Of a stretch of DNA of 64,000 nucleotides, positions 4,678-59,739 are shown piece after piece (position 1 is the first letter of the stretch; the number at the start of each line of letters is the position of its first letter). Source of the stretch: an uncultured Pelagibacteraceae bacterium (GTDB lineage: Bacteria > Pseudomonadota > Alphaproteobacteria > Pelagibacterales > Pelagibacteraceae); contig CACGGJ010000001.1 of the NCBI GenBank assembly GCA_902572515.1, positions 109,415 through 173,414 on the forward strand. The letters run 5' to 3'. The notes beneath the pieces are model-generated. The model was not told where the DNA came from, did not search any database, and saw only the letters and a list, made by a program, of their open reading frames with translations. A program made the translations under genes and the position numbers.

Positions 4678-4719
4678 TCCTTGCCATTTAGGGGCTTTAT
4701 AGCTATAGAGTTAATTTTA

Positions 4720-5661
4720 ATGGCAATTAAAACCAATAAAGCTATTAAAATCTCACAAAAACATCTGTTAGGTATCCAAGATTTATCAGTTAATGATATT
4801 AATTATATCCTGGATGAGTCAGAAGCTTTTATAAAATTAAATCAAAGTAAAAATAAAAAAATTGATGTGTTAAGAGGCAAAACACAAATAAACCTATTCT
4901 TTGAGCCATCAACTAGAACACAAAGCTCATTTGAACTTGCTGGAAAAAGACTTGGTGCAGATGTTATGTCAATGAATATGGGTAACTCAGCCATTAAAAA
5001 AGGTGAAACTTTAATTGATACGGCCATGACCTTAAATGCAATGCATCCTGATATAATTGTAATCAGACATCAAGACTCGGGTGCTTGTAATCTATTATCT
5101 CAAAAAGTTAATTGTGTTGTATTAAATGCTGGTGATGGTAGACGTGAGCACCCTACTCAAGCATTATTAGATGCATTAACAATTAGAAATCGAAAAAAAA
5201 AAATTCAAGGATTAAAAATAGCTATATGTGGAGACATACTTCATTCGAGAGTGGCTAGATCAAATATTTATCTTCTGACAATGTTAGGAGCAGAAGTTAA
5301 TATAGTTGCACCATCGAATCTTATGCCAAAAGAAATTGAAAAGTTTGGTGTAAACACTTTTACTGATATGAAAAAGGGTCTTAAAGATTGTGATATTGTA
5401 ATGATGCTTAGATTGCAAAATGAAAGGATGACCAGTTCTTATCTTTCATCAAATAGAGAATATTATGAATATTATGGGTTAACGCCAGATAAACTTGATC
5501 ATGCAAAATCAGATGCTCTGATTATGCATCCTGGTCCAATGAATAGAGGAATTGAAATTGATACAAGATTAGCTGACGACATAAACAAGAGTGTAATTAA
5601 AGAACAAGTTGAACTAGGTGTTGCTGTAAGGATGGCATGTTTAAAAATATTTTGTGAATAA
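4720..5661 (+). CDS. pyrB: Aspartate carbamoyltransferase catalytic subunit
   Basis: [29 protein letters not shown]; likely start MAIKTNK. Confidence 0.95.
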
Positions 5662-6948
5662 ATGAAAAAACAATACTTTATAAATGCAAACATTATAGAT
5701 CCTCATAATTCCATAAACGAAAATGGTGGATTAATAATTGGAGAAGACGGGAAGATAGAAGCAATAGGAAAAAAGGTAAATACAAACAATTTACCAACTA
5801 GAGAAAAACCTACTGACTTAAAGGGTAAATATATATTTCCTGGTATAGTGGATATGAGAGTTTTTGTAGGCGAACCAGGATATGAATATAAAGAAAATTT
5901 TAGGACTTTAAGTAATGCAGCTTTATCTGGAGGAGTAACTTCTGTCGTAACCATGCCTAATACAGATCCAATTATAGATAATGTGTCAATTGTAGATTTT
6001 TTAAAAAGAAGAGGACGTGATAAATCTAAAATAAATATTTTTCCTTGTGCTTCATTAACTCAAAACACTGATGGCACCAATATGACTGAATTTGGGTTAC
6101 TAGCTAAAAAAGGAATTATTGCTTTTACTGACGGAGTAAAAACAATTCAAAATACTAGACTTATGTCTAGAATTATGAATTCAGCTAAAGATTTAGGATG
6201 TCTTATAATGCAACATGCTGAAGATTACGATTTAGCTAAAAATGGGATGATTAATTCTGGTATTATTGCAACAAAACTTGGCTTATCAAGCATACCAGAT
6301 ATTGCTGAAAGAATTATAATAGAAAGAGATCTTACTCTCTTAGAAAAAACTAAATGTCGATATCATATATCTCAACTTTCAGCGGGAAAATCTGTAGATA
6401 TTATTAAACAACGCAAACAAAATGTTAAATTTACTTGTGGTGTATCAATAAATAATCTCTCATTAAATGAAAATGATATTGGAGATTTTAGAACATTTTT
6501 AAAATTATCACCTCCACTAAGAAGAGAAGAAGATCGAGAAGCTTTGGTTCAAGGATTAAAAGATAAAACCATTGATGTAATTGTTTCTGACCATAAACCT
6601 GAAGATGAAGAATCTAAAAGATTAACTTTTGCACAAGCTGCAACTGGTGCATCTGGTATTGAAACATTGTTATCCTTAAGTTTAGAATTATTTCATAATG
6701 GATCTGTAAAACTTGAAACTATAATTCAAGCTTTAACCTCTAACCCAGCAAAAATATTAAATATAAATAAAGGAAACCTGTCTATTGGTAATGATGCGGA
6801 TTTTTGTATAGTAGATATCAATAAACCATGGATTGTAAAAAAAGAAAATTTAATCTCTAAATCTAAAAATACTTCAATTGAAGATAAGAAACTTCAAGGA
6901 AAAGTAACCAATACATTTGTAAAAGGTATAGAATTATTTAAAATATAA
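5662..6948 (+). CDS. pyrC: Dihydroorotase
   Basis: FPGIVDMRVFVGEPGYEYKE..., VSDHKPEDEESK; next to pyrB. Confidence 0.92.
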   Translation: MKKQYFINANIIDPHNSINENGGLIIGEDGKIEAIGKKVNTNNLPTREKPTDLKGKYIFPGIVDMRVFVGEPGYEYKENFRTLSNAALSGGVTSVVTMPNTDPIIDNVSIVDFLKRRGRDKSKINIFPCASLTQNTDGTNMTEFGLLAKKGIIAFTDGVKTIQNTRLMSRIMNSAKDLGCLIMQHAEDYDLAKNGMINSGIIATKLGLSSIPDIAERIIIERDLTLLEKTKCRYHISQLSAGKSVDIIKQRKQNVKFTCGVSINNLSLNENDIGDFRTFLKLSPPLRREEDREALVQGLKDKTIDVIVSDHKPEDEESKRLTFAQAATGASGIETLLSLSLELFHNGSVKLETIIQALTSNPAKILNINKGNLSIGNDADFCIVDINKPWIVKKENLISKSKNTSIEDKKLQGKVTNTFVKGIELFKI

Positions 6949-43930: not shown

Positions 43931-45121
43931 TTACTCTATAATTTTAGTTACTACTCCTGCTCCAACAGTTCTACCACCTTCTCTAATTGCAAAGTTTAAT
44001 TTCTCTGCCATAGCGATAGGTGTAATTAGTTTAACAGTAAATTTAGCATCATCACCAGGCATGACCATTTCTGTACCAGATGGTAATTCTACTTCACCTG
44101 TAACGTCTGTTGTTCTAAAATAAAACTGAGGTCTGTATTTAGTAAAGAAAGGTGTATGTCTTCCACCTTCATCTTTTTTAAGTACATACGCTTGAGCCTC
44201 AAATTTAGTGTGTGGAGTAATTGAACCGGGCTTACAAAGAACTTGACCTCTTTCGATGTCATTTCTTTCAATACCTCTCAATAAAATTCCAACATTATCT
44301 CCAGCTTCACCTGAATCTAAAAGTTTTCTAAACATTTCAACTCCAGTACAAACTGATTTTTTAGTTTCTCTAATTCCAACTATTTCAACTTCTTCACCAG
44401 TTTTAATTACACCAGACTCAACTCTTCCAGTTGCAACTGTTCCTCTTCCAGAAATTGAAAATACATCCTCAACTGGCATCAAGAATGGTTTATCAACTTC
44501 TCTAGCTGGCTGTGGAATATGTTCATCAACAGCTTTCATTAATTCTAAAATTGAATTTTTTCCAATTTCATCATCTCTTCCTTCGACAGCTGCTAAAGCT
44601 GAACCTTTGACAATTGGTGTTTTGTCACCTGGATATTTGTATGAAGTTAAAAGTTCTCTTATTTCTTCTTCAACAAGTTCAATCATTTCTTTATCATCAA
44701 CTTGATCAACTTTATTTAAGTACACAACAATAGCAGGAATACCTACTTGTCTTCCTAAAAGAATATGTTCCCTTGTTTGTGGCATTGGACCGTCAGCTGC
44801 ATTAACAACTAATATTGCACCATCCATTTGAGCAGCACCAGTTATCATGTTTTTAACATAATCAGCGTGTCCAGGACAATCGACGTGAGCATAGTGTCTC
44901 TTTTCAGTTTCATACTCAACGTGTGCAGTTGAAATTGTTATTCCTCTCTCTTTTTCTTCAGGCGCTTTATCAATTTGATCATAAGCAACTGCAGTTCCGC
45001 CGCCCGCTTGTGCTAATACATTTGTAATAGCGGCAGTAAGGGTTGTTTTACCATGGTCGACATGACCGATAGTCCCAATGTTACAGTGGGGTTTATTTCT
45101 TACAAATTTTTCTTTTGACAT
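43931..45121 (-). CDS. tuf: Elongation factor Tu
   Basis: [20 protein letters not shown]. Confidence 0.98.
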
Positions 45122-45167
45122 TACGTTTTACCTCAGTTTTTTTTTGTTTCTTCTAATTTTAATTTCT

Positions 45168-45241
45168 TGGAGCGGGTAAAGGGAATCGAACCCTTACATC
45201 CAGCTTGGAAGGCTAGCGTTCTACCATTGAACTACACCCGC
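45168..45241 (-). tRNA. tRNA-Gly (TCC)
   Basis: GCGGGTGTAGTTCAATGGTAGAACGCTAGCCTTCCAAGCTGG...TTCGATTCCCTTTACCCGCTCCA. Confidence 0.95.
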
Positions 45242-45285
45242 ACAACCCCAAGAGTAACACTCCATGTTATCTAAAATTTATTAAA

Positions 45286-45371
45286 TGGTGGAGGGGGAAA
45301 GATTCGAACTTTCGAAGACCGAAGTCAACGGGTTTACAGCCCGCCCCATTTGACCGCTCTGGAACCCCTCC
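45286..45371 (-). tRNA. tRNA-Tyr (GTA)
   Basis: GGAGGGGTTCCAGAGCGGTC...GGGCTGTAAACCCG...long variable arm...TTCGAATCTTTCCCCCTCCACCA. Confidence 0.94.
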
Positions 45372-45500
45372 TTTGGGGAAGTGTCCCCTTGTTCAATAAA
45401 GCTTCAAATAACAAGCGTTTTATATATTTTATTTATGCAAATGCAACACGTGATTTAATAGGAAAATATTAAAAAAACCGTATAAAACAGATACAAATTT

Positions 45501-46244
45501 ATGAATAAATCATCATTTTTCATTGTTGGTCAACACGCAGTTATTGAGGCTCTTAGAAATCCTAAAAGAAAGGTTTTAAGAGTATTTTTAACGGAGGAGT
45601 CAAAAAAAAATATTCATAGAAAAAACCCAAATAAAAACATTTTAGAGGATGTTAAAGTTTACTTTAAATCTAAAAAAGAATTAGACAAATATACTTCTAA
45701 AGAACAATTAATGCATAATGGTTATGTTGCAGAGATTGAACATTTGGATCAACCTGATCTAAAACAATTTATTAAAGACAAAAAAAATTTAACATTTGTC
45801 TGTCTTGATGAGGTTACTGATCCAAGAAATATTGGTTCATTAATCAGAAGTGCTGCATCATTTGATATTGATGGATTGATAATTAAAGAAAGACATTTTC
45901 CACGTGATAGTAAGTTGATGTATAAATCAGCAAGCGGTTGTATTGAGCACATTAATATTTTTGAGGTTTCCAACATTAATTCTACATTAAAAAATTTAAG
46001 AGAAAAAAATTTCTGGGTTTATGGTTTTGATGCAAAAGGCCAAAAGGATTTTACAGATATAAAATGGGAAGGAAATAAAATTCTTCTATTTGGATCTGAA
46101 GGGTTTGGTATGAGAAAGCATACAGGTAAATATGCAGATTTTTTTGTTAAAATTAATATTAATGAAGATATAGAAAGTTTAAATATCTCAAATAGTGCTG
46201 CAATAGTGTTTCATCACCTTAGTTATATAAAAAAAAAGAGTTGA
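45501..46244 (+). CDS. rlmB: 23S rRNA (guanosine-2'-O)-methyltransferase, SpoU/TrmH family
   Basis: LDEVTDPRNIGSLIRSAASF, LFGSEGFGMRK, SAAIVFHHLSY. Confidence 0.93.
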   Translation: MNKSSFFIVGQHAVIEALRNPKRKVLRVFLTEESKKNIHRKNPNKNILEDVKVYFKSKKELDKYTSKEQLMHNGYVAEIEHLDQPDLKQFIKDKKNLTFVCLDEVTDPRNIGSLIRSAASFDIDGLIIKERHFPRDSKLMYKSASGCIEHINIFEVSNINSTLKNLREKNFWVYGFDAKGQKDFTDIKWEGNKILLFGSEGFGMRKHTGKYADFFVKININEDIESLNISNSAAIVFHHLSYIKKKS

Positions 46245-46277
46245 TTATTTAACAAATAGTTAATAATTATTGTGCAT

Positions 46278-46353
46278 GCCCTTGTAGCTCAGCTGGTAGA
46301 GCAATTGATTTGTAATCAATAGGTCCGCGGTTCGAATCCGTGCGGGGGCACCA
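46278..46353 (+). tRNA. tRNA-Thr (TGT); integration target, intact copy at the left end of the tandem island
   Basis: GCCCTTGTAGCTCAGCTGGTAGAGCAATTGATTTGTAATCAATAGGTCCGCGGTTCGAATCCGTGCGGGGGCACCA, complete cloverleaf. Confidence 0.96.
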
Positions 46354-46355
46354 CT
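46300..46355 (+). repeat. att copy 1: 56-bp direct repeat overlapping the 3' half of tRNA-Thr
   Basis: agcaattgatttgtaatcaataggtccgcggttcgaatccgtgcgggggcaccact, identical at 47116-47171. Confidence 0.93.
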
Positions 46356-46410
46356 TTACTTACTTTTTTATCAGAATAATTTATGCAAAAACTATTCTTA
46401 CGACAATAAG

Positions 46411-46430
46411 TGTTGTCAGATTGTTGTCAG
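46411..46430 (+). promoter_or_regulatory. Candidate recombinase arm-type site, element 1 left
   Basis: TGTTGTCAGATTGTTGTCAG, 11-bp period; 16 bp repeated at 47045-47060. Confidence 0.55.
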
Positions 46431-46453
46431 ATAAAACTAACAACTTGAACTTT

Positions 46454-47029
46454 TTAATTAATATAACTTTTTATTTGTTCTAGCCCAAAACATTTACCTG
46501 TAAATTCAATCATAATAATATCACCTTTATATTTTGTTCTTAAACTTGAAGAATAATTTCCTGTGTTTAAAGAAATCGATCCAATGAAACGTTCCATCTT
46601 TAAATCACTGGAGCCAGAGACTAATTGAAGCCATTTTTTATCTGGATCAAATTTTATTGTTTGGCTACTAACTATTAAGTCACCTATGTTTTGCGAAAAT
46701 ATTTGTGCAGGTCTTCGTAAACTTTTATTAGATCTCATTTCAAGAGTATAGAATTTTTTTCCTTTTCTTAAATTATATTCATCAATAAAAAGTTCTTCGG
46801 TATTGTGCTCCGGACCAAGACCCATTCCTGCATAATTTGTATATACTGTTCCCTCACAAGTAAATTTATATTCAGTTTTTGAAATGGAACTTTTGCTTTT
46901 AATTTCTTTATAGCCAGCACTTCCAAATTGAAACAAGCCTTTTGCTGTCCATAAAATTGCTATCACTAATCCAATGGCTGCTAAAATTTGAATAGGTCCT
47001 TTTGGCCTATATTCTTTTTTCTTTGCCAT
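46454..47029 (-). CDS. Single-TM protein of unknown function (element 1 cargo)
   Basis: ORF with MAKKKEYRPKGPIQILAAIGLVIAILWTAKGLFQF N-terminal TM; start trimmed from 47044 to 47029. Confidence 0.65.
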   Translation of the reverse strand: MAKKKEYRPKGPIQILAAIGLVIAILWTAKGLFQFGSAGYKEIKSKSSISKTEYKFTCEGTVYTNYAGMGLGPEHNTEELFIDEYNLRKGKKFYTLEMRSNKSLRRPAQIFSQNIGDLIVSSQTIKFDPDKKWLQLVSGSSDLKMERFIGSISLNTGNYSSSLRTKYKGDIIMIEFTGKCFGLEQIKSYIN

Positions 47030-47044
47030 AAAAAACTTTATCAT

Positions 47045-47064
47045 TGTTGTCAGATTGTTGCCAA
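47045..47064 (+). promoter_or_regulatory. Candidate recombinase arm-type site, element 1 right
   Basis: TGTTGTCAGATTGTTGCCAA; first 16 bp identical to 46411-46426. Confidence 0.5.
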
Positions 47065-47115
47065 GTTAAAAGTATTTAAAGATTATTGTTGCAAACAAAT
47101 GTTTATTTAAACTTT

Positions 47116-47171
47116 AGCAATTGATTTGTAATCAATAGGTCCGCGGTTCGAATCCGTGCGGGGGCACCACT
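47116..47171 (+). repeat. att copy 2: partial tRNA-Thr 3' half between elements 1 and 2
   Basis: 56 bp identical to 46300-46355. Confidence 0.93.
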
Positions 47172-47272
47172 AAAATCTCATTTATTTTCAACAAACATAA
47201 TAATTTCCTTAACTTTTTTAAAAACAAAAAATCGTTGAATAATACTATAGAATGGAAGGAAGAAGAACTGAC

Positions 47273-47293
47273 TGTAGTCTTTTTGTAGTCTTT
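47273..47293 (+). promoter_or_regulatory. Candidate recombinase arm-type site, element 2 left
   Basis: TGTAGTCTTTTTGTAGTCTTT, identical at 54846-54866. Confidence 0.6.
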
Positions 47294-47294
47294 G

Positions 47295-48203
47295 CTAAAA
47301 AGAACTTAGTTTGAAAGATACTTCATATTTCATAAATTTTATATTTGGTGCAACAGATAATGCATCTCTTAAATTCTTATCATCCTCTAATGCAATTATA
47401 AGTCCCTTAACATCTTTATCACCAGCCAAATTATTTTTAATATGCCCCATATATCTTTGGATCTGACCCATAACTACATCACTAGCTCTACCCTTCTTTA
47501 ATTCTATAACTAAAAATTCTTTTTTATCTTTACTAATTGCTAAAATATCTAAAGGACCAGATCCTGTTGAATATTGAGTACAAAGTTTGTTATTTTCTTT
47601 ATGAATATCATAATCTTTGTTCAGCTCTATATTGGTCCAATTTCTAATAATATAATCCTCGAGATGTTTTTCTAATAAAAAAGAAGATTTAGGAACTAAA
47701 TTATTTTCAATTGAATAATCTTTTTCATTATTAACATTAGTTTGATTTTGAATAGGAATTATTTCACCAGAATCTTCAACAGTTAATTTTAATTCTATAG
47801 TTTCTACCTCTTTTTTATTTCCATCTAAACAAGGAACACCATCCTTAAAACTAACAACTTTTCCAATACCTAGATAAGTGAATTGGGGATCTTTATTATC
47901 CCAACGCGCAAAAAAATGTGGCGTCATTTCACCGGATAATAACTTTTGAAAAGTTGGTTGTTGAGAATGAGATCTTGGTTTTCCGTACCAAACAATAACT
48001 CCTTTTGAATGATCATAATGATTATCAAAATCATGTTCTGTTGTTCCTGGCACACCAATATTCATGAAGATTATTAAATTATCTTCGACACGTACATAAC
48101 CTGTATCCCAATCACCGCCGGCAGGTCTGCCCTTGTCAGGAAAGCAAACCCAACCAATATCTTTTCTTGAATATTTTGAACCTTTTTTAAATTCTAATTT
48201 CAC
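47295..48203 (-). CDS. Putative DUF3427-like domain fused to NucS-like (DUF91) PD-(D/E)XK endonuclease
   Basis: C-terminus GPLDILAISKDKKEFLVIELKKGRASDVVMGQIQRYMGHIK gives D-x(n)-E-x-K nuclease core; N-terminus PHFFARWDNKDPQFTYLGIGKV resembles DUF3427-type modules. Confidence 0.65.
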   Translation of the reverse strand: MKLEFKKGSKYSRKDIGWVCFPDKGRPAGGDWDTGYVRVEDNLIIFMNIGVPGTTEHDFDNHYDHSKGVIVWYGKPRSHSQQPTFQKLLSGEMTPHFFARWDNKDPQFTYLGIGKVVSFKDGVPCLDGNKKEVETIELKLTVEDSGEIIPIQNQTNVNNEKDYSIENNLVPKSSFLLEKHLEDYIIRNWTNIELNKDYDIHKENNKLCTQYSTGSGPLDILAISKDKKEFLVIELKKGRASDVVMGQIQRYMGHIKNNLAGDKDVKGLIIALEDDKNLRDALSVAPNIKFMKYEVSFKLSSF

Positions 48204-49589
48204 TTATTTTTTCTCTTCAATTTGAATTATACAATCTGGTCCAACTTTAAGTGTAAAAGATTTTATCATATCTCTAAAGTCTTCTTCCATATCAAGCATA
48301 GCTCTTTCCTTATTAGCAATACTGTTTTCAAAAAACTTTTTTTCTTTACCCATAAGATCATTCATTTTAATAATTGATTGATACAAATTTCTTACAGGTA
48401 ATTGAAATGATGGGCCCATTATATGATCCCAAAGCCTTTTCATCATTTTTGGAGCATCAAAATCTTTCTTAGATTTATGTTCATTTATCAAGTTAGTTTT
48501 AATAAAACTTACAAGCATGTGAATTATTGGATAATTCATTGGAATTATAATAATTCTTTTACCATGCCTTTCAACATAGCCATCATGTTGTTTATTATAG
48601 TCTTTTGGCATAGCCGTAGTAATTAAAACACCATAATTGATATTTTTATCTTTCATATCGCTTAATAATTTACTTACCCATTCTTCTTTAAAAGTTTTGT
48701 GATCTTTGCTTTCAAAGTAAATCTGTGCAAGTTTTTCTTGATCTTTATTATTAATTGTAAGTATACAATCTGCACCTTTTGCTCCCTTTTTAACTTCTTC
48801 TACAGTATCTTGTGGAAATTTACTTCTAAGGTAATCCTCAATCAGTTCTTCTTGAACTTCACCTTGAACTTCCATCGATTTTTGTTTTAATTGTTTAGAC
48901 ATTTCATCAATTTTAACTTGAGTACGCCTTTTTTCTATTTCTCTTTCTTTGTCTTTTTTAGCCATCAGATCTTTAAGTTTTTGAACATCGTTTTCAGATT
49001 TTTCTTTAATTTTTTGTTCAATAACTTTTTCTTTTTGTTTAAGATCTGCAATTAACTTGGCTTCAATTTGTTTTTTATTCTTCTCAGCTTGTGCAACTTT
49101 AGTTTGAAGATCCATAAGCTCTTTTCTTTGCTTATTTTCTCTAATTAAAGCTTTCTCTTTTAACTGTTTTTCGATTTCTTTTTCCTTAAGCTTTAAACTG
49201 GCAATTAACTTAAACTCTGCCTCTTTAGAGCTTTTCTCCATTGCTTTTTCTTTAGCCTTAAGTTTATCTTCAATTGCTTTTTCTTTTTGCTTTAGCGTTG
49301 CTGTCATCTTTAATTCAGTATCTTTTCTACTCTTTTCGGCCTCTAAAATTTTAGACTGCAATGCCTGAACTTTCGCTTTACTTTCATTTTGTGCTTTTAA
49401 TGAAAGTTCTTTCTCTAAATTTTTTTCTTTTAGCTTGAAATCAAGATTAAATTTTTCTTTTAAAAGCTTTTCCTTAACCTTAATTTCTTCTTGGTACTCT
49501 TTTTCTTTGCTCTTTAAGTGATTTTGTAATGCCTGATCTGCAGAAAAAGTTTCATTACAGCTAGGACATGTTATTGTTAGTTGACTCAT
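48204..49589 (-). CDS. DUF2130 family protein (zinc-ribbon, long coiled coil, nuclease-like C-terminal domain)
   Basis: ITCPSCNETFSADQAL N-terminus, long K/E coiled coil, KGADCILTINNKDQEKLAQIYFESKDHKTFKEEWVSKL. Confidence 0.8.
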   Translation of the reverse strand: MSQLTITCPSCNETFSADQALQNHLKSKEKEYQEEIKVKEKLLKEKFNLDFKLKEKNLEKELSLKAQNESKAKVQALQSKILEAEKSRKDTELKMTATLKQKEKAIEDKLKAKEKAMEKSSKEAEFKLIASLKLKEKEIEKQLKEKALIRENKQRKELMDLQTKVAQAEKNKKQIEAKLIADLKQKEKVIEQKIKEKSENDVQKLKDLMAKKDKEREIEKRRTQVKIDEMSKQLKQKSMEVQGEVQEELIEDYLRSKFPQDTVEEVKKGAKGADCILTINNKDQEKLAQIYFESKDHKTFKEEWVSKLLSDMKDKNINYGVLITTAMPKDYNKQHDGYVERHGKRIIIIPMNYPIIHMLVSFIKTNLINEHKSKKDFDAPKMMKRLWDHIMGPSFQLPVRNLYQSIIKMNDLMGKEKKFFENSIANKERAMLDMEEDFRDMIKSFTLKVGPDCIIQIEEKK

Positions 49590-49616
49590 ATTTATTTTAC
49601 TCCTTTATTTAATTTA

Positions 49617-49817
49617 TTAGTTAATTGTTAGATCTTCTTCGGCACTCCACTCATTTGACTTATGCTGAATTTCTTTGATTTTACTTTTGGCTAAATATTC
49701 AATAACCTTACTAAATGTTAATTCTGCATTAATAATGTTACCTTTTCTTAGCCATTCTAAAGCTTCATAAGTATCCCTAGGTATGCTTACTGATTTATAT
49801 TTATTTGGATCTGCCAT
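49617..49817 (-). CDS. Ribbon-helix-helix-like small regulator
   Basis: 66 aa, KYKSVSIPRDTYEALEWLRKGNIINAELTFSKVIEYLAK. Confidence 0.55.
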   Translation of the reverse strand: MADPNKYKSVSIPRDTYEALEWLRKGNIINAELTFSKVIEYLAKSKIKEIQHKSNEWSAEEDLTIN

Positions 49818-49840
49818 TTTATCTCCCTTGTTTAATTTAA

Positions 49841-49864
49841 ATCCCCTGTTCCTTTACAGGGGAT
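49841..49864 (-). terminator. Perfect 9-bp GC-rich hairpin between the 78-aa and 66-aa genes
   Basis: ATCCCCTGT-TCCTTT-ACAGGGGAT. Confidence 0.5.
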
Positions 49865-49876
49865 GTTGTTGACGAT

Positions 49877-50113
49877 TTATTTACTTTCATCGCCTATTGT
49901 TAAAAATATTCCTCCAATTAAACCTGCTGCAATTGGAGTGAACTGTGACATTGGTCCCAAGAATGCGGTTAAATTTGTCCCCATTCTAGACGCAGCATAA
50001 TCTACAACTGCAAATCCTATGAAGAGTATTCCTAAATAACCAAATACTCCGCTAGGCAAATCAATCATCATTTCATCATTACTATTTTTTTTCTCTATTT
50101 TTGTTTTTTTCAT
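49877..50113 (-). CDS. Small membrane protein, two predicted TM segments
   Basis: GVFGYLGILFIGFAVVDYAA and FTPIAAGLIGGIFLTI hydrophobic segments. Confidence 0.6.
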   Translation of the reverse strand: MKKTKIEKKNSNDEMMIDLPSGVFGYLGILFIGFAVVDYAASRMGTNLTAFLGPMSQFTPIAAGLIGGIFLTIGDESK

Positions 50114-50140
50114 TTTCTCCTCTTTGTTAGTGTTTAGGAC

Positions 50141-50310
50141 TAAGAGGAATTCACAAATTGCAGAAAGGAGGTTAAGAACTATAATTTAACCAAAGATCAA
50201 TTTGCTCACTTCCTCTTAATCTTTTGTGTGTTCAATAAAATCAAACACACCCTATTTATAGTGATTTTAAAATGGTTTACCCGTAGGTTAACTTTTGACT
50301 TTGCCTACGG
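50141..50310. repeat. Nested and serial inverted repeats in the divergent control region of element 2
   Basis: TAAGAGGAA/TTCCTCTTA (50141-50149, 50210-50218), inner CAAATTG/CAATTTG and GGTTAA/TTAACC, then GTGTGTT/AACACAC (50226-50250) and CCGTAGG/CCTACGG (50281-50310). Confidence 0.65.
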
Positions 50311-50334
50311 ATGAATTTCTAATAATCTAAATTT

Positions 50335-50841
50335 ATGAGTAAAAGAAAGGGCTATCCAAGAAAACCATATTCATTTGAAAGAGTTTTAAAAGATTTAGCT
50401 GACGATATTGGTTACGATAATATTGAAACTGTTATAGAAAAAAAAAGAAAAGCTATTGAACATATCTCAAATCCTAATTTCAAAGATCGACAACTTCATA
50501 TACAAGATGGGTTGGAATTAGATATTCATTGTAAAAGGATTGGTAAAGGAACCCCTTTTCTTACAGCTTATGAAACCTTACTTAGAAAAGAAATTGCCAA
50601 TAGAAAAGATCACGATACTAGTGACGAAATAATCAATAATTTACTTAGGTTAGGTGAGTCTATAGGTGATGTAATGGAAGAAACTAGAAAAGCATTAGAC
50701 GATGATAAGGTTGATGAAGATGAAAAAGAACAAATTTCTATTGAGGTTATTGAATTAGAAAAAAAAATTGCTGAACTTAAGCTAAAATTAAATTTAGGTG
50801 AAAAAACAAACTATAAAATTCAAAATAAAAGAGAACCTTAA
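50335..50841 (+). CDS. Putative phage-type (CII-like) regulatory protein
   Basis: 168 aa; AIEHISNPNFKDRQLHIQDGLELDIHCKRIGKGTPFLTAYETLL resembles prophage regulatory proteins of alphaproteobacteria (recalled pattern, not searched). Confidence 0.45.
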   Translation: MSKRKGYPRKPYSFERVLKDLADDIGYDNIETVIEKKRKAIEHISNPNFKDRQLHIQDGLELDIHCKRIGKGTPFLTAYETLLRKEIANRKDHDTSDEIINNLLRLGESIGDVMEETRKALDDDKVDEDEKEQISIEVIELEKKIAELKLKLNLGEKTNYKIQNKREP

Positions 50842-50844
50842 TCA

Positions 50845-51693
50845 ATGCGTTATAGGTTTTTATTTAATTTTCTAAAAATTTCACTAGTTACAAAAGGAAT
50901 AAATAAAATAAATATTTTTTTAAATCTTGCAATTTTTTTAAGCATCTTCGCTATCTCAAGTACTCTCATATCTATATATTATGAATCAAAAATTACTGAT
51001 ATCGAAAAAAAAATCGCAAAAAATGATACGATATTAGACGTTCTGTCAGCGAGCACACTATCAATTCCAACTAAAGTTTTAGGTTTAGAGAATATATCAA
51101 ATGATATTAAAAAAAATAATGACATCATAAATTATTTTTTTTATTCAAAAGTAGGACAATTATTTGATGAATATGAATTGTATTATCGTCCAGTGATTCA
51201 TCTTAGTAATTATTTATCTAGTGGTTTTACGGCTATTAAAAATTTTGAGGATTTTATTAATATTAAAGATGATGCAATGCTTAAAAATGTTGATGAGAAA
51301 GTATTTGAAGATTTAAAGCAAAACTCAAGAAACCAAGAAGAATTTTTAAAAATTAGAAATAAAATTGATAATGATCATAAAGAATTTAAACTAGACAGAG
51401 GTATTAAGGTAATTAAACCTGAAAGTTTAAAAAGTTATCAAAATTACTATGACACTTTTATTATATATATAAATGATCAGCTTCATCATTATTCAATAAT
51501 ATCTGGAACGTTACAAAAAATTTATAATAATATAAAAAACGATAATCTTAAAAATTTTGAAGAAATATCGAAGAATTCAAAAGAGTCTAAAAAATTCATT
51601 ATATTTGCTTTTTTCTTTCAATTAATAATTTTTATTATTGTACAGGTAATGGAAATAATAACTACCAGAAGGGAAATACAAAAAATCAAATGA
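50845..51693 (+). CDS. Membrane protein A (N- and C-terminal TM), unknown function
   Basis: N-term FLSIFAISSTLISIYYESK and C-term FIIFAFFFQLIIFIIVQVMEI; paralogue of 53331..54098. Confidence 0.75.
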   Translation: MRYRFLFNFLKISLVTKGINKINIFLNLAIFLSIFAISSTLISIYYESKITDIEKKIAKNDTILDVLSASTLSIPTKVLGLENISNDIKKNNDIINYFFYSKVGQLFDEYELYYRPVIHLSNYLSSGFTAIKNFEDFINIKDDAMLKNVDEKVFEDLKQNSRNQEEFLKIRNKIDNDHKEFKLDRGIKVIKPESLKSYQNYYDTFIIYINDQLHHYSIISGTLQKIYNNIKNDNLKNFEEISKNSKESKKFIIFAFFFQLIIFIIVQVMEIITTRREIQKIK

Positions 51694-52547
51694 CTTTAAA
51701 TGTAAGAATTCTAGGTTTAATTATTCTAGTAGGTTTATTTACTGTATCATCTTTTATTTTCGATCAGATGGTTATTTATTCTGAAGATAAAATCAGAGAA
51801 AAAAACTTCTTATATAAAAGATCATTTAATAATTATTTATCTAGCAAAAATGTAATGTTTACTACGAGAGATTTAATGACAAGGATTCAAGTGAAAAAAA
51901 ATTTTTTTGAGGATAGACAATCCTTTTTGCAGGATGCTGTATCAGTATTATTTAATGATAATCTGATTAAATCAACATTTGATGAAAATGTTGGAAAAAA
52001 TTATTTCAAAAATCTTAAAACAATTTTTACATCAAGATATCAAACACTGGGATATGATATTTTAAAAGAATGCGATCTAGCATACAGTTTTTTTAAAGGA
52101 ATACAGGTAAGAAAATTTGATCTTAATATCCATGAAGATGAAAAGACAATAAAAGCAATTAAAGGATTAAATAAAATAAATTTAGAAAACTCATTAAAAA
52201 CTCATGATCATTTTACCAAAAAACTGGATATAGAAAGAAAAAAAATTCTATCTGTAGACTATGGCATTTCTAATATTGACGAATTCTATCTCATTAGAAA
52301 AATGTACACTGATTTATTAAATTATTATTTTTTACACTATGGATACTTAGAAAAAATAAATGATGCACATAGGGTAACTTTCAATTTTTATTTTAAAGAA
52401 TCTTCACGTTTTTTAGATGAAAAAAGTAAGCACGAAAGACAAAAAAATTATTTTATTTTATTTGGTGTTTTATCTCAAATTTTAAGTCTTTTTTTCCTAA
52501 TATTTCTTTTTAAAACTTTAATGTTTTTAGCAAATAAAAAATCATAA
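51690..52547 (+). CDS. Membrane protein B (N- and C-terminal TM), unknown function
   Basis: ATGA overlap with A; SSFIFDQMVIYSEDKIREKNF and LFGVLSQILSLFFLIFLFKTLMF; paralogue of 52558..53334. Confidence 0.75.
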   Translation: MTLNVRILGLIILVGLFTVSSFIFDQMVIYSEDKIREKNFLYKRSFNNYLSSKNVMFTTRDLMTRIQVKKNFFEDRQSFLQDAVSVLFNDNLIKSTFDENVGKNYFKNLKTIFTSRYQTLGYDILKECDLAYSFFKGIQVRKFDLNIHEDEKTIKAIKGLNKINLENSLKTHDHFTKKLDIERKKILSVDYGISNIDEFYLIRKMYTDLLNYYFLHYGYLEKINDAHRVTFNFYFKESSRFLDEKSKHERQKNYFILFGVLSQILSLFFLIFLFKTLMFLANKKS

Positions 52548-52577
52548 AAAATTTGTCTTAAATTTTTGATTTTTTAT
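52534..52577. terminator. Bidirectional terminator-like long inverted repeat between convergent B and B'
   Basis: ATAAAAAATCA...AAAATTT-GTCTT-AAATTTT-TGATTTTTTAT. Confidence 0.6.
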
Positions 52578-53334
52578 AAATCAACAATCCTCTAAATAAA
52601 ATCAACAAACAGAGTAAGCTTAATAACTGGAATACTACACCGAATAGAAGCATAAGTTGTTTTCTATTTTCTATTTTTGAAGACTCATTTATCAATTTAT
52701 CGAGATCTTTTGATGCATTCGTTCCAAGTTCAGCCATAGTATTTAACAGATCTTGTAAATAATAATTATTGTGTTCTACATAAGCTTTTGTAGTTTCTAG
52801 AGCAGAACTTTCAGTATCATTTCCATCTTTATCTGTTAAAACAATTACAAAATCAGGGTCTTTTTCTAACTCACCAGTTAACCAATGATTTTCGTCAATT
52901 AAATATTGAAAATATTCAGCAAAGGAAAACTCTTTTTGATTTAATTCTTCACTACTTGTATCTGTTGCCTTTATCTTTTTATCCTTAAGACCTTCTATTA
53001 CCATTTGATCATTAATAATATCTTCCATTAACCTGGTTTGATCAAAAATATTTGAAAAATAATAAAATTTTTTTTTATCTTCAGAAAATGTAGATGCACT
53101 TACAATAAAAACTGTATTTTGAAATGCTAGCAGAAACTCATTTACCCTATTGTTCATTGAAAGATAAGCAGATCTACTTTCTGAGTTTGTTATTATATCA
53201 AAGTTAACTTTCCTTAATTTTTCCTCATACTGAATAACAAATTGGTCAAAAACAAAAGTTAAAATTTGAAAAACACCTGCAAGAAAAACCAATGTCCAGT
53301 TAAAATTTGATAATTTTCCTTTTGCTCTTCTCAT
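52558..53334 (-). CDS. Membrane protein B' (paralogue of B)
   Basis: LTFVFDQFVIQYEEKLRKVNF and LLFGVVFQLLSLLCLLILFRGLLIY match B. Confidence 0.75.
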   Translation of the reverse strand: MRRAKGKLSNFNWTLVFLAGVFQILTFVFDQFVIQYEEKLRKVNFDIITNSESRSAYLSMNNRVNEFLLAFQNTVFIVSASTFSEDKKKFYYFSNIFDQTRLMEDIINDQMVIEGLKDKKIKATDTSSEELNQKEFSFAEYFQYLIDENHWLTGELEKDPDFVIVLTDKDGNDTESSALETTKAYVEHNNYYLQDLLNTMAELGTNASKDLDKLINESSKIENRKQLMLLFGVVFQLLSLLCLLILFRGLLIYKKSKI

Positions 53335-54098
53335 GAAAGTTCTTTTAATTCAAATATTTGTACTAAAGAAAAAATAACCAATTGAAAAATAAACGCATAC
53401 AAGATTGCATCTGTTGATTTGTCTGTTGTATTTAGAATAATTTTTTTTAATTCTTTTTTTTCACTATCAACAATACGATTATAATCTTGAAAGAATAAAT
53501 TTATTTGTAAAGTATTATATTCAGATTGGTTCAAATGAGATAAAATATCATCAAATGGAACATTTTTAAGAACTTCCTCAATTTCTAAAATTTCACTACT
53601 TTCTAAATATTCATTCTCATTATCAGGGAATTTATCATATATTTCATAAACATAGTTTAACGCGTCTTCATTTGTCTTTTTGATGTTTTTAAAATTATAT
53701 TTTTTCTTAAGAATTTCATTTTTGATGAGCTCAATATCATCAATGGCATACCTAATTGTAAACGGATACCAAGTTAATAAATAAAAATAAAATCTTTTCT
53801 TACTTATGTTAACCTTTTCGTTGTTTTCAATTGTATCATAAGTAAATTTTCCAATTTTAAATTCTAAATTTCTTGATGGTGCGTCTGTTAACCATTCTTG
53901 TATTTTAAACTCTTCAAGTTCTAATTTAATTAATTTAACCTTATAATTGTTTAATTTATTTTCAAAATATATTGAAATACCTGAAGATATAAGTGCTGCT
54001 AATACTAAAAAAATTCCCAACTCCGAAAAAAATTTCAGTCTTTGTTTATTTTTTTTACTAGTTGCTAAAAGGTTTTTAATTAAAAAAGCTCTAATCAT
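53331..54098 (-). CDS. Membrane protein A' (paralogue of A)
   Basis: LGIFLVLAALISSGISIYFENKL and ILYAFIFQLVIFSLVQIFEL match A; 4-nt overlap with B'. Confidence 0.75.
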   Translation of the reverse strand: MIRAFLIKNLLATSKKNKQRLKFFSELGIFLVLAALISSGISIYFENKLNNYKVKLIKLELEEFKIQEWLTDAPSRNLEFKIGKFTYDTIENNEKVNISKKRFYFYLLTWYPFTIRYAIDDIELIKNEILKKKYNFKNIKKTNEDALNYVYEIYDKFPDNENEYLESSEILEIEEVLKNVPFDDILSHLNQSEYNTLQINLFFQDYNRIVDSEKKELKKIILNTTDKSTDAILYAFIFQLVIFSLVQIFELKELS

Positions 54099-54803
54099 TT
54101 ATATTTTTATTTTCTCATGTTCGCTTTTTTTATTTTTCTGTTTCCTTTTAAGATCTCTATGAAGGTATAATGAAGAAAAAACTAGAGCAAGTATGACCCA
54201 CATTGAGTCTGGCCATTCAAGAAAATTATAAAAACCATGAAATAGATAAGGTAAAATTAATGACAATATCAAAAAATTTTTATTTCCAGTAAAAGCATAC
54301 ATTCCAAAATAGTAACCCATTACAGCACCATTAAGTCCATGCAAAGGTATTGCCGAGTATGACCTGCCTAAAGCCACTAAATATGATAATTCAGCAAAAT
54401 CATAACCTTCATCTTTTGCTATTTGCTCTGCCCATTCATATACGTAAGTATAATTTTCATAAGTTGCAAAACCCAAAGAAACAACAACCCCATAAACTAA
54501 ACCATCCATAGGTTCATTAAATTCGTTTCTTTTTAAAACTATTAGATAAAGAATTGAAAATTTTAACAATTCTTCGGCCCACGCAGGACCCAAGAAACTA
54601 CTGACTAAATTTTCAGAGTATTTTGATCCGTCATAAAAAAAATCATGACTTAAACCATTTAAAATTCCCGCAGGTAAACAAATTAAAAAACCAAGAAAAA
54701 AAATTAATATTACTGTGCCTTTAGGTTCTTTAAATTTATCGGTAAGTACAAAATATAATAAAATTATTATTGGAGGAACTAATGTAATTAAAAGAGTTAT
54801 CAT
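54099..54803 (-). CDS. PrsW-family intramembrane metalloprotease-like protein
   Basis: AWAEELLKFSILYLIVLKRNEFNEPMDGLVYGVVVSLGFATYENYTYV, HGLNGAVMGYYFG, LFHGFYNFLEW: EExxK and His-containing TM motifs. Confidence 0.8.
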   Translation of the reverse strand: MITLLITLVPPIIILLYFVLTDKFKEPKGTVILIFFLGFLICLPAGILNGLSHDFFYDGSKYSENLVSSFLGPAWAEELLKFSILYLIVLKRNEFNEPMDGLVYGVVVSLGFATYENYTYVYEWAEQIAKDEGYDFAELSYLVALGRSYSAIPLHGLNGAVMGYYFGMYAFTGNKNFLILSLILPYLFHGFYNFLEWPDSMWVILALVFSSLYLHRDLKRKQKNKKSEHEKIKI

Positions 54804-54845
54804 TTAAAAATGCTATCAAATGATTAAAATAAAGTCTAACACAAG

Positions 54846-54866
54846 TGTAGTCTTTTTGTAGTCTTT
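54846..54866 (+). promoter_or_regulatory. Candidate recombinase arm-type site, element 2 right
   Basis: TGTAGTCTTTTTGTAGTCTTT, identical to 47273-47293. Confidence 0.6.
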
Positions 54867-54943
54867 ATAAATGATGCTAGTAGACGGGAGTCTAAAAGTT
54901 AAGTAGTATCAACCTTAATGATAGGAAAATTATTTACGCTTAC

Positions 54944-54991
54944 TGATTTGTAATCAATAGGTCCGCGGTTCGAATCCGTGCGGGGGCACCA
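54944..54991 (+). repeat. att copy 3: tRNA-Thr 3' fragment at right end of element 2
   Basis: tgatttgtaatcaataggtccgcggttcgaatccgtgcgggggcacca, 48 bp identical to tRNA-Thr 3' end. Confidence 0.93.
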
Positions 54992-55028
54992 TCACACAAA
55001 AAAAAATTAACGTTAAATATTTTAAAAC

Positions 55029-56090
55029 CTATAATAATTTAAAATATTTTTTAATTTGGCTTAAAGTAAATTCAAAAATTTTATTTGGATTTTTATAAAA
55101 CTCTTTATACCACAAATTAGTTAAATTCAGCGCTTCAAAAACATTTATTCTTGGTCTCCAGTTAAAACTTCTTTTAATTTTAATGTTAGATAACTTGAGT
55201 ATCTTTGTTTCTTTAAATTTGATTTTTTTTTTGTAGCCAAAATTTAAAATTTTAAGGTTTTTCTTTAATATTTTTACTAAAGTAATTACTTTAATATTAG
55301 AGCTTTTATTAGGGCCTACATTAAATACTATTGAATTTGATTTTATTTTTTTTTGACTTTTGCAAATTATTATCAGCAAAGCATTTATTAAATCAAAAAT
55401 ATGCTGCCAAGGTCTTATTGCATTTGGATTACGTAAAATAAATTTTTTATTTTTATTAATTGATAAAAATAAGTCAGGAATTAATCTTGTAAAATCAAAA
55501 TCACCTCCACCAATTATATTTCCAGCTCTAATAATCGTTACATTTTTTGTAAATTTGAAAAAAGACTCTTTGTAGCTATTTGCTAAGATATCTTGTGAAG
55601 ACTTACTTGAACTGTATGGATCAAGTCCACCTAATTTAGATTCCTCGCTCAAAATATTTCCTGTAATGTTTCTATAAACTTTATCTGAGGTAAAAATTAA
55701 TACCTGACGAACAGATGGGGTTTTTTTTATCAACTCAAACAATTCGATAGTTCCTAAGACATTTGTTAAGTAAGTACCTTTTATATCTTTATAAGCCTCT
55801 CTGACTATAGGTTGTGATGCTAAATGAATAATAATTTCTGGTTTAAATTTAATAATTTTTTTTTTAAAATTATTTATTTTTAAAATATCACCAGAAATAG
55901 TTTTAATTAATTTTTTAAAATTTGGATGGTTAGATAGATATCCCTTGTAATTTTTTTTTAATGAATAACCTAAAATATTTGCACCAAATAAAGACAAAAC
56001 AATTGATAAATTAGATCCAACAAACCCAGTGTGGCCTGTAATTAATATTTTTTTTTTATTAAAGAATTTTTTAAATGTTTTTATTCGCAT
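55029..56090 (-). CDS. rfbG: CDP-glucose 4,6-dehydratase
   Basis: ILITGHTGFVGSNLSIVLSLFGANILGYSL, LGGLDPYSSSKSSQDI, IRAGNIIGGGDF. Confidence 0.9.
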   Translation of the reverse strand: MRIKTFKKFFNKKKILITGHTGFVGSNLSIVLSLFGANILGYSLKKNYKGYLSNHPNFKKLIKTISGDILKINNFKKKIIKFKPEIIIHLASQPIVREAYKDIKGTYLTNVLGTIELFELIKKTPSVRQVLIFTSDKVYRNITGNILSEESKLGGLDPYSSSKSSQDILANSYKESFFKFTKNVTIIRAGNIIGGGDFDFTRLIPDLFLSINKNKKFILRNPNAIRPWQHIFDLINALLIIICKSQKKIKSNSIVFNVGPNKSSNIKVITLVKILKKNLKILNFGYKKKIKFKETKILKLSNIKIKRSFNWRPRINVFEALNLTNLWYKEFYKNPNKIFEFTLSQIKKYFKLL

Positions 56091-56941
56091 TTTATTTTTT
56101 CTAATTTATCCCAAAATAAAATAAATTTTTTTTCATATTTGTAATTTAATTTAGATCTATGAATTTGATCATTTATATATTTATAGAGCACACTTATTCT
56201 AGGATCTATTTTTTTATTAATTTTTTTTAAAAATGGATTTATAGAATTATAACAATTTTTTTTATTATGCTGTATATAAAATCTATTTATCTTTGAAAAC
56301 TTAACTTCAAGTATCATATTGTTATTATTTTTGTCAGATAAATCAAAATAACAGAAATTTTTTTTAGTAGTAATTTTATTTAATTTAAAAAATTTTAAAT
56401 CATAAAAAATTCTTATAAAATGAATAGAATAAAATCTAATTAATCCACCGCCTGATGAATGAACATATTTCCATAAGTTGTTTTCACTATTATGTTTAAT
56501 ATCCCAAATTATTTTAAATTTTTGATTTCTTGTTAGTCTCCTTTTAATATAATTGTGCCACACAATATATTTAAACAAAAAGCCCACGCTAAATTTTATT
56601 TTTTTATTTTGTAAAAATTCAATTAATTTAATTGAATTCGAAGGATTGATACTTATAGGTTTTTCCAAAAAAACGTGTTTTGGTCTATAAATTTTAACAT
56701 ATCTTCTTAAATTCAAATCTTGGTTTTGTGGATTTTGGGCAATGATTAAGTAATCAATTTTTTTTAAAGTTAATTTTTTTTCATTATACCAAATTACTTT
56801 TTTTAAAAACTTTTTTAGTTCAATTCTTTTTTTAATTTTTTTTTGATATTTTATATTTAAAAATATATTTTTAGATTTTTTGTATATTGAAGGAAGATAA
56901 CCATATAATCCAAAACCTGATCCAAGAATTAAAGTATTCAT
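56081..56941 (-). CDS. Gfo/Idh/MocA-like oxidoreductase
   Basis: LGSGFGLYGYLPSI, DYLIIAQNPQNQ, HVFLEKPISINPSNSIKL. Confidence 0.7.
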   Translation of the reverse strand: MNTLILGSGFGLYGYLPSIYKKSKNIFLNIKYQKKIKKRIELKKFLKKVIWYNEKKLTLKKIDYLIIAQNPQNQDLNLRRYVKIYRPKHVFLEKPISINPSNSIKLIEFLQNKKIKFSVGFLFKYIVWHNYIKRRLTRNQKFKIIWDIKHNSENNLWKYVHSSGGGLIRFYSIHFIRIFYDLKFFKLNKITTKKNFCYFDLSDKNNNNMILEVKFSKINRFYIQHNKKNCYNSINPFLKKINKKIDPRISVLYKYINDQIHRSKLNYKYEKKFILFWDKLEKIKCE

Positions 56942-58161
56942 TTAAAATCACTTTTTGATATTATATCAATTACTTTGCCTTTATATTTTAATTGACTTGA
57001 TAAATATTTTTTTATTTCAGAACTAATATGCCAAGCTAAATTAATTATAACACCCTTTTTTTTATCCTTTTCTGAAAAAAATTTTTCTTTTACAATTTTA
57101 ATATTTGTTCCAGGAGCATACTTATTATTTTTCAAAGATGTATTTTTTTCATAAATAAACGAAATATAATTGGAGTCCAATTTTAGTAGATTTAATATTA
57201 TTGAGGCTCTACCAGGAAATGCTTTAGCTGCTATTGGTCCTTTTTCTCTTACAATTTGATAAAGTTGTTTTTTTTTCTTTAAGCACCAATAATCAACTCT
57301 TTTCTGCAAATATCTAACCTGATTAATTATTAATTTTTCAGATCTCAATTTTTTTTTAACTTCACTTTTGTTTTTAAAAACTTTACCTTTATTGCTTAAA
57401 TACACCCTTATATTGCCGTTGTATCTTTTAACAAACTTGTAATCTATTATTTTAATTTTCATTTTTTCTGAAATTTTAACAAATGACTTCAAACTATATG
57501 TTCTTGGATGTTCGTGATAGAAGGTATCAAATTGATTTTTTTTAATTACCTCACCAAAATAGTGATTTTCAATTATTATTAAAGTATCGTCATCACAAAT
57601 ATTTTTCAGAGACAATAATAAATTTTTTAAATCATCGATATGTGCAAAAACGTTTGTGAAAGTAATTATATTAATTTTTCCAATTATTTTTTTAATTTTA
57701 TTTGAAGAAGATAAATTAAAGTAACTATTAAAAATTTTATGTCCTTTTTTTTTAGCCTCTTTATAAGCTCCTGTAGGCTCAATTCCAAATGTTTTACATC
57801 CTTGCTTTTTAAATAATGATAGTAAACTTCCATCGTTACAACCAATATCTAAGACTGTTTTATCTTTGATATTAGTAAAATATTTCTTTGAACTCAAAAC
57901 CAAATCTTTCATGCCATCTAAAACATCTTTTGTATTAGAAGATCTATAATGATAAGTTTTTGGGAATAAGATTTTTTTCTCTATATTATATTTCTGAAAG
58001 GCTGTTAGACAATCTTTGCAATAAGAAACCTTTAGTTTATAAAATTTATTATTATTTGGTTTTTTTGAAAGATCATCGCATAGCGGTTGTTTTCCAAGAT
58101 TTAGAAAATCAAATAACTTTTTTTCACAGATTTGGCACTTTTTAATTATTTTATATTTCAT
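56938..58161 (-). CDS. Sugar C-methyltransferase-like SAM-dependent methyltransferase
   Basis: CQICEKKLFDFLNLGKQPLCDDL zinc-binding N-term; VLDIGCNDGSLLSLFKKQG; ENHYFGEVIKKNQFDTFYHEH. Confidence 0.85.
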   Translation of the reverse strand: MKYKIIKKCQICEKKLFDFLNLGKQPLCDDLSKKPNNNKFYKLKVSYCKDCLTAFQKYNIEKKILFPKTYHYRSSNTKDVLDGMKDLVLSSKKYFTNIKDKTVLDIGCNDGSLLSLFKKQGCKTFGIEPTGAYKEAKKKGHKIFNSYFNLSSSNKIKKIIGKINIITFTNVFAHIDDLKNLLLSLKNICDDDTLIIIENHYFGEVIKKNQFDTFYHEHPRTYSLKSFVKISEKMKIKIIDYKFVKRYNGNIRVYLSNKGKVFKNKSEVKKKLRSEKLIINQVRYLQKRVDYWCLKKKKQLYQIVREKGPIAAKAFPGRASIILNLLKLDSNYISFIYEKNTSLKNNKYAPGTNIKIVKEKFFSEKDKKKGVIINLAWHISSEIKKYLSSQLKYKGKVIDIISKSDFK

Positions 58162-58969
58162 TGAAATTTTCTTTCAGTAAAATATATGGCCAGGTTTGGA
58201 CTTTAAGATTTTTTTCAAAATAATATGAAAAGTATCTCTCTGCTAAAAAATCATAAAGTCGTTCTTTTCCATACCCAGTAAGTTCTATCTTTGAAAAAGT
58301 CTTTTCGCACTTGAATATCCAATCAAAAGTTTTTTCATATAATTTTACTATATATTTTTTTTTTGAAATAAACATTTGCAAAGGGTAGAATGAATAATTG
58401 TTATTTATATAATTTTTAAAATTAAGACAATCCTCTTTTTCCAATAGATCTGCTGATTGATTCAGTAAATTGTACCCATGAAATAAATCAAAATGTAAAC
58501 TTATACTTATTTTTTTTCTATTAAATAATATTTTTGGGTTTTTAATATAATTTCTAAATCCTTTCTTTATTAATTTAGATAATTTTAAGTTTTCTAAATT
58601 AATTTTATCTGGCAACAAGACTTCAAAATCACCATTTGGAATAGAGCGCTGTATATGCTCTTTTAAATTCAAACTAGTCAAATTATCATTTGATCTATTT
58701 ATCCAAAATCTTCTATAATGATTAATTCCAATCCAATCATCATCTTCCAAATTAATAAATTCATTATTCCACAGCCAATAATGAGAAGATAATGTTCCAA
58801 AATTTTTATTTTTGTTTGAAATATTTTTGCCTGTTGAATCTTTAAACCAATTATCAGGAAATTTTGACAGATCTTTAGAAATTGAACCAGATACAATTAT
58901 TTTCAAATCTAAATTATGTAGAAAAGAATAATTTTTTCCAGTTATACAATAATGATTAATTAATGGCAT
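58151..58969 (-). CDS. DUF4422-type glycosyltransferase-like protein
   Basis: SHYWLWNNEFINLEDDDWIGINHYRRFW, YPLQMFISKKKY, AERYFSYYF. Confidence 0.75.
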   Translation of the reverse strand: MPLINHYCITGKNYSFLHNLDLKIIVSGSISKDLSKFPDNWFKDSTGKNISNKNKNFGTLSSHYWLWNNEFINLEDDDWIGINHYRRFWINRSNDNLTSLNLKEHIQRSIPNGDFEVLLPDKINLENLKLSKLIKKGFRNYIKNPKILFNRKKISISLHFDLFHGYNLLNQSADLLEKEDCLNFKNYINNNYSFYPLQMFISKKKYIVKLYEKTFDWIFKCEKTFSKIELTGYGKERLYDFLAERYFSYYFEKNLKVQTWPYILLKENFNEI

Positions 58970-59031
58970 GGTAAATAAAACAAAAATATTTTTCTTTATT
59001 TAAAGTATTTATACTTTAAAAATCAATATTA

Positions 59032-59739
59032 ATGAAATTAGTTATCTTAGCTGGAGGTTATGGAACGAGACTCGCAGAGGAAACCAAAGTTAAACCAAAA
59101 CCTTTAGTTAAAATTGGTAACAAGCCAATAGTTTGGCATTTATTAAAGATTTACTCATATTATGGAATCAATGATTTTATAATTTGCTTAGGTTACAAAG
59201 GCGACTTGCTTATTAAAGAATTAAATCAAATCTCCAATAAAGAAGACTGGAAAATTAAATATGTTAAAACTGGTCTAAAAACTATGACTGGAGGTAGAAT
59301 AAAAAAAATCCAAAAATTTATTAAAGATGATGAAAATTTTTGTCTTTCATATGGTGATGGTTTGTCTGATGTAAATATTAAAAAACTGATCAAATTTCAC
59401 TTAAAAAATAAAAAAATAGCAACACTTACTGCAGTTAAATATAAAAACCCAAAAGGAATATTGCTTTTTGGCAATCAAAATAAAATTAAAAAAATTAAAG
59501 AAAAACCATTAGAATATATTAATGGTGGTTTTTTTGTATTATCAAAAAAAATATTTAAATTTTTAAAAAATTCAAAAACAATATTCGAGAAAGATTGTTT
59601 GCCAAAACTAGCTCATACTAATGAACTGATAGCTTTTAAACATAAAGGTTTCTGGGGATGTATGGATACTTTAAGAGAAAAAAAAGAATTAAACAAAATT
59701 TATAAAAGTAATAACAAAGCCTGGAAAGTTTGGATTTAA
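59032..59739 (+). CDS. rfbF: Glucose-1-phosphate cytidylyltransferase
   Basis: MKLVILAGGYGTRLAEETKVKPKPLVKIGNKPIVWHLLKIYSYYG. Confidence 0.92.
   Translation: MKLVILAGGYGTRLAEETKVKPKPLVKIGNKPIVWHLLKIYSYYGINDFIICLGYKGDLLIKELNQISNKEDWKIKYVKTGLKTMTGGRIKKIQKFIKDDENFCLSYGDGLSDVNIKKLIKFHLKNKKIATLTAVKYKNPKGILLFGNQNKIKKIKEKPLEYINGGFFVLSKKIFKFLKNSKTIFEKDCLPKLAHTNELIAFKHKGFWGCMDTLREKKELNKIYKSNNKAWKVWI

Follow-up and report, generated by a model that had tools for sequence, protein, structure and literature searches.

Two-protein membrane modules linked to a PrsW-family protease are exchanged as cassettes on a tRNA-Thr-anchored island of SAR11 bacteria

The intramembrane protease PrsW has been described in B. 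subtilis, where it works in the envelope-stress response via the membrane-anchored substrate RsiW, and PrsW domains are also known in polymorphic-toxin processing (PMC3482391). A second point of reference is provided by the tycheposons, tRNA-anchored cargo islands (PMC10872708) that have in common with the locus described here cargo placed next to a tRNA gene, tRNA-derived repeats and a streamlined aquatic bacterium as host. The window that we analyzed, a stretch of 64,000 nucleotides, is from a SAR11 (Pelagibacterales) genome whose nearest named records are Candidatus Pelagibacter and Pelagibacteraceae single-cell genomes. SAR11 bacteria belong to the ocean's most abundant organisms and have minimal genomes in which few optional genes are kept. 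In these genomes two unnamed membrane protein families are kept mobile together with a PrsW-family protease, are swapped between species as exact blocks and alternate with ion-channel-like receptors. The window PrsW is of the same family as the B. subtilis enzyme and keeps its motif residues, but it is tied to a two-gene pair encoding proteins with two transmembrane (TM) segments, with no sigma/anti-sigma pair recognized nearby, and A and B, the members of that pair, have no output domain comparable to that of RsiW. Likewise, the window island differs from tycheposons in being 7.8 kb in size and in carrying no tyrosine recombinase.

The module contains two gene pairs arranged tail to tail, A and B on the forward strand and B' and A' on the reverse strand (Table 1). 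An earlier note made from the sequence alone had described these four open reading frames, and ORF calls agree with its coordinates, lengths and 4-base overlaps. It had also proposed that A is related to A' and B to B'. BLASTP establishes both as genuine paralogous pairs, with E=4e-5 and 25% identity over 259 columns for A and A', and with E=5e-7 for an N-terminal segment and 0.003 for a C-terminal segment of B and B'; the shared motifs cited in the note are present. Comparison of the A profile with the B profile gave an hhalign probability of 2.7%.

Table 1. Features of the tRNA-Thr-anchored island and its borders (positions in the window)
Feature	Position	Strand	Evidence or remark
tRNA-Thr(TGT)	46278-46353	+	ARAGORN; island anchor
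Repeat copy 1, 48-bp tRNA-Thr 3' half, anticodon stem-loop to CCA	46306-46353	+	perfect direct repeat
Repeat copy 2, left end of 7.8-kb island	47122-47169	+	perfect direct repeat
PDDEXK (NucS-C/DUF3427) nuclease-like protein, island passenger	47295-48203	-	Pfam NucS_C 3.3e-7; PADLOC candidate PDC-S02 1e-58
DUF2130/Mrr-like protein, island backbone	48204-49589	-	Pfam 6.4e-31
Small protein, putative ribbon-helix-helix-like by eye, island backbone	49617-49817	-	ORF
78-aa small hydrophobic protein, island backbone	49877-50113	-	recurs near PrsW/A-B modules
CII/CP76-like putative DNA-binding regulator	50335-50841	+	PHROG 101 2.9e-7; Pfam just below cut-off; 3 bp upstream of A
A, pair 1, first gene; membrane protein with two TM segments	50845-51693	+	282 aa
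B, pair 1, second gene; membrane protein with two TM segments	51690-52547	+	285 aa
B', pair 2, second gene; membrane protein with two TM segments	52558-53334	-	258 aa
A', pair 2, first gene; membrane protein with two TM segments	53331-54098	-	255 aa
PrsW intramembrane protease	54099-54803	-	PF13367 1.5e-33; 0 bp upstream of A'
Repeat copy 3, right end of island	54944-54991	+	perfect direct repeat

Alignments were built from 16 A and 19 B proteins drawn from related genomes and GTDB contigs. Nearly every full-length member of either family has a single hydrophobic segment near each end and an N-terminal flank that is basic or neutral; one B protein is truncated by the end of its contig. In a comparison of 20 A-B pairs identity is 43-48% at the ends and 20-21% in the middles, and the middles of the window's own paralogs are indistinguishable from shuffled sequence (z=1.4 for A/A' and 0.5 for B/B'). 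Hydropathy and middles too diverged to align thus bear out the earlier description of one TM segment at each end with a diverged center. Overall dN/dS values of 0.08-0.24 for A, B, A' and B', with 0.37 in the closest comparison alone, where there are few changes, indicate that all four genes are under purifying selection.

The two genes of a pair are adjacent and follow the order A-B in all 22 pairs that we found in a search of the kind suggested in the earlier note; they overlap in 22 of 22 and by exactly 4 bp in 15 of these. So regular a recurrence over 22 pairs is not explained by chance. A mirror-tree comparison of A and B distances gave r=0.975, against 0.41 for the best of 5000 permutations, although part of this correlation would be expected from the shared ancestry of neighboring genes alone. 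The co-divergence spans the separate double pairs of the window and of locus L037, which supports the view of two co-diverging pairs of diversified type. A promoter scan gave sites no commoner than in shuffled sequence, and no terminators were found.

None of the four proteins has a significant match in Pfam, NCBIfam, PHROG or PADLOC, and enlarged A and B family profiles gave no significant PDB sequence match and no consistent Pfam match. AlphaFold predicts both A and B to be all-helical, with long helices continuing from the TM segments in what are weak models; the A model (mean pLDDT 59) is too weak for a fold search, while the B model (mean pLDDT 71) gave no Foldseek match below E=1e-3 in the PDB or in a viral library. 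The first impression that no known family is recognizable therefore held across the sequence collections, the PDB and the fold library, and the structure search proposed as a check placed B in no known housekeeping family below E=1e-3. Hydropathy and the weak models suggest a plan of TM segment, helical periplasmic part and TM segment that is common to 4HB-type chemoreceptor sensors and Wzz co-polymerases. However, A and B have neither a sequence match nor a significant fold match to these proteins and lack a cytoplasmic output domain, and both identities were rejected.

The distribution of the families is narrow. Of the 398 genomes sampled from the order, 13 carry A, and a class-wide sample of 325 genomes yielded a single marginal and partial hit outside the order (E=7e-4, in G722). 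At the sensitivity used, searches of PHROGs, phage records and viral contigs found no relatives of A or B, on which ground a phage origin was rejected, and a plasmid collection held no relatives of B'. One further candidate B (G289/L048) proved to be a methyltransferase false positive and was dropped.

The gene for PrsW belongs to the A-B module, and it is absent from the earlier account. The window protein scores 116.5 bits against PF13367 (cut-off 23.5) and does not reach the NCBIfam equivalog threshold for PrsW proper (113.9 versus 225). Among 14 SAR11 PrsWs residues E77, E78, K81, E116, H155 and H189 are invariant, with the acidic and histidine motif residues located in TM segments. On this basis we assign it to the PrsW family and predict that it is proteolytic. 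PrsW is present in all 13 A-positive genomes and in 48 of the 398 genomes of the order (hypergeometric P=2e-13, with genomes taken as independent though they are related). At 13 loci PrsW immediately precedes A, with a gap of 0-10 bp in 12 of them, and at L033 it is one gene away from A. Often a DUF2167 gene or the gene for the CII-like regulator precedes PrsW with ends that overlap or almost touch, and elsewhere the CII-like regulator overlaps the PrsW start by 1 bp. The link is not exclusive, as A-B pairs without an adjacent PrsW exist at L032 (G008) and at L034, where PrsW is about 6 kb away. Moreover, the PrsW distances correlate modestly with those of A and B (r=0.36 and 0.41), so that PrsW may be a generic neighbor and not a fitted partner.

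In other SAR11 genomes the place beside PrsW is often taken not by A-B but by a protein resembling pentameric ligand-gated ion channels. Among 59 PrsW genes with known context, A or B lies within four genes of 19, a channel-like protein of 24, both of 3 and neither of 19, which is about a third of those examined. The channel-like proteins comprise a 402-aa form with a Pfam ligand-binding domain (LBD) match of 7.7e-13 and longer proteins (~520 aa) that fall below Pfam cut-offs. They adjoin PrsW at L120, L134, L132, L035, L142 and other loci. The N-terminal stretch of the longer forms is PDZ-like by eye, and the 402-aa form often adjoins a flavin amine oxidase gene. Other recurrent genes near PrsW modules encode DUF2167 and DUF805 membrane proteins. 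A search of the window's own genome gave no channel-like match, a search in which control genomes likewise gave none. A and B themselves are not members of the channel family, since they have two TM segments and not four, are predicted to be all-helical and match neither Neur_chan_LBD nor Neur_chan_memb in Pfam, and a shared genomic place does not prove that A-B has the same activity.

The 7.8-kb unit bounded by the tRNA-Thr repeats carries the PDDEXK, DUF2130, CII-like, A-B, B'-A' and PrsW genes, and at locus L044 (G400) the same island starts directly at tRNA-Thr and ends in the same repeat. PrsW modules lie between tRNA-derived repeats elsewhere as well, involving tRNA-Leu (L033, L037, L132), tRNA-Met (L155, and L116 by sequence) and tRNA-Pro (L131), and the tRNA-Thr, tRNA-Leu and tRNA-Met repeat blocks stop at or near the anticodon loop. 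The island itself contains no integrase; the single PF00589 (Phage_integrase) match in the genome, which is 89% complete, is at C1:68530-69069, outside the window. Just beyond the right repeat, at 55029-59739, are genes of low G+C content (19-25%) that appear by eye to be of sugar-nucleotide type.

Comparison with related loci shows that A-B-type blocks are exchanged as gene-precise cassettes. The island at L044 matches the window at 97.6% identity over 3727 bp on its left side (47116-50842) and at 89.9% on its right side (54100-55006), while the interval 50843-54099 is swapped for a different A-B pair and a Sel1-repeat gene. As identity stops at 50842 and resumes from 54100, A-B-B'-A' is precisely the replaced block, and this is exactly the unit that the earlier note had delimited. 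Outside the island, core sequence is 81% (44229-46355) and 76% (NAD kinase side) identical between the two genomes, so that an island 90-98% identical has moved between species recently relative to its flanks. L035 retains A-B, with 96.5% identity over 48207-52541. The exchange there is confined to B'-A', with breakpoints near 52541 and 54098, and has brought in a channel-like gene, a gene encoding 441 aa and a DUF805 gene; the relative of the 441-aa gene in L036 is a flavin amine oxidase. At 11782-12009 of L035 a 75-aa piece resembling the C-terminus of B adjoins PrsW, where the window has A'-B', and is probably a remnant of the replaced pair. L037 has both pairs tail to tail with DUF805 inserted between them. 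The earlier account is incomplete in that it left out this block exchange, including that with the ligand-gated-channel-like gene, as well as PrsW and the tRNA-Thr repeats.

The explanation that we favor, although tentatively and with somewhat less than even confidence, is that the window carries two paralogous PrsW-linked two-protein membrane modules that are exchangeable cassettes on a mobile tRNA-Thr-anchored SAR11 island and that form a heteromeric receptor or channel under PrsW control. Both A and B would cross the membrane once at either end, with a helical middle placed in the periplasm. The conserved TM ends would hold A and B together as a hetero-oligomer in the inner membrane, while the variable middle may serve as the sensing or specificity part. 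PrsW would then cleave or clear A and/or B within the membrane and thereby switch the complex. Given that in other genomes this position next to PrsW is occupied by a pentameric ligand-gated-channel-like protein, the complex would most likely act as a receptor or a channel. If the pairs are indeed PrsW-switched channels or receptors, then they would represent a new type of client for intramembrane proteolysis, and bacterial ligand-gated channels would gain a testable genetic context. A bolder version, which we regard as something of a long shot, is that A-B constitutes a new class of heteromeric PrsW-controlled receptor or channel functionally interchangeable with bacterial pentameric ligand-gated channels, and that the PrsW-centered island is a new modular defense or signaling system of streamlined ocean bacteria.

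Other roles for the module have to be weighed against this receptor or channel reading. One is that it is a PrsW-controlled sensor of the environment or the envelope, responding for instance to amines, salts or envelope stress, that is niche-adaptive and not involved in conflict. The alternative occupants of its place are channel-like and at several loci adjoin the amine oxidase gene, DUF2167 and DUF805 membrane proteins recur, and there is the precedent of B. subtilis PrsW acting via RsiW (PMC3482391); however, no sigma or anti-sigma factor was recognized among the scanned neighbors and the tails of A and B are short with no output domain, leaving this role unlikely but a credible contender. 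The earlier note had instead proposed phage defense, immunity or superinfection exclusion. In a membrane-level version of defense or abortive infection, the pair would sense infection, be released or activated by PrsW and permeabilize the inner membrane, with the cassettes diversifying against phages. A mobile island with recent interspecies transfer and cassette exchange, a sporadic distribution, a candidate defense nuclease in the same island and faster-evolving middles are all consistent with such a role, yet A, B, the window PrsW and most partners tested have no PADLOC match, searches of phage and viral-contig collections, and of plasmids for B', gave no relatives, and the dN/dS of the middles is well below 1, with no sign of positive selection at this crude level. 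Furthermore, in four genomes of one genus, g15 (L041-L043, L046), the module occupies a shared chromosomal neighborhood, which is more like a settled function, and a search pairing PrsW with "phage defense" found no paper in the literature collection covered, pairings with DUF2167 or ligand-gated channels likewise giving no relevant one. We therefore consider a defense role rather unlikely.

It is also conceivable that the pairs are selfish stabilizing or immunity cassettes, namely toxin-like membrane proteins or proteins conferring immunity against bacteriocins or contact toxins, that favor retention of the island. An island with no integrase, two diverged copies side by side and the part played by PrsW domains in polymorphic-toxin processing fit this idea, but neither A nor B has a toxin domain, no secretion or toxin partner is recognized in the island and purifying selection maintains the pairs as stable types, so that we judge it very improbable. 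Wzz co-polymerases determine the chain length of envelope polysaccharides and have two TM segments and a helical domain in the periplasm. Although this overall topology is the one predicted for A and B and the sugar-nucleotide-type genes are close by, a Wzz-like role is disfavored and hardly to be expected, as no A or B member matches a Wzz Pfam model, the sugar genes lie beyond the repeat-bounded island and no such cluster recurs beside other A-B loci. As regards the selective benefit, which may be defense, stress response or competition, the island context and the candidate nuclease favor a conflict role, while the channel and amine-oxidase neighbors together with the shared neighborhood in one genus favor sensing.

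Smaller insertions are also present at these sites. In the window an 816-bp unit at 46354-47169 precedes the island, lies between perfect repeats of 56 bp that contain the 3' half of tRNA-Thr and carries one 196-aa gene with no family match; it looks like a second, tiny tandem insertion. At L131, DUF2167-PrsW stands alone at 3983-6085, flanked by 25-bp repeats of the tRNA-Pro 3' end. A second site, next to the NAD kinase gene, is seen at L033, L035, L037, L044 and L132, where direct repeats of the tRNA-Leu 5' half flank small insertions.
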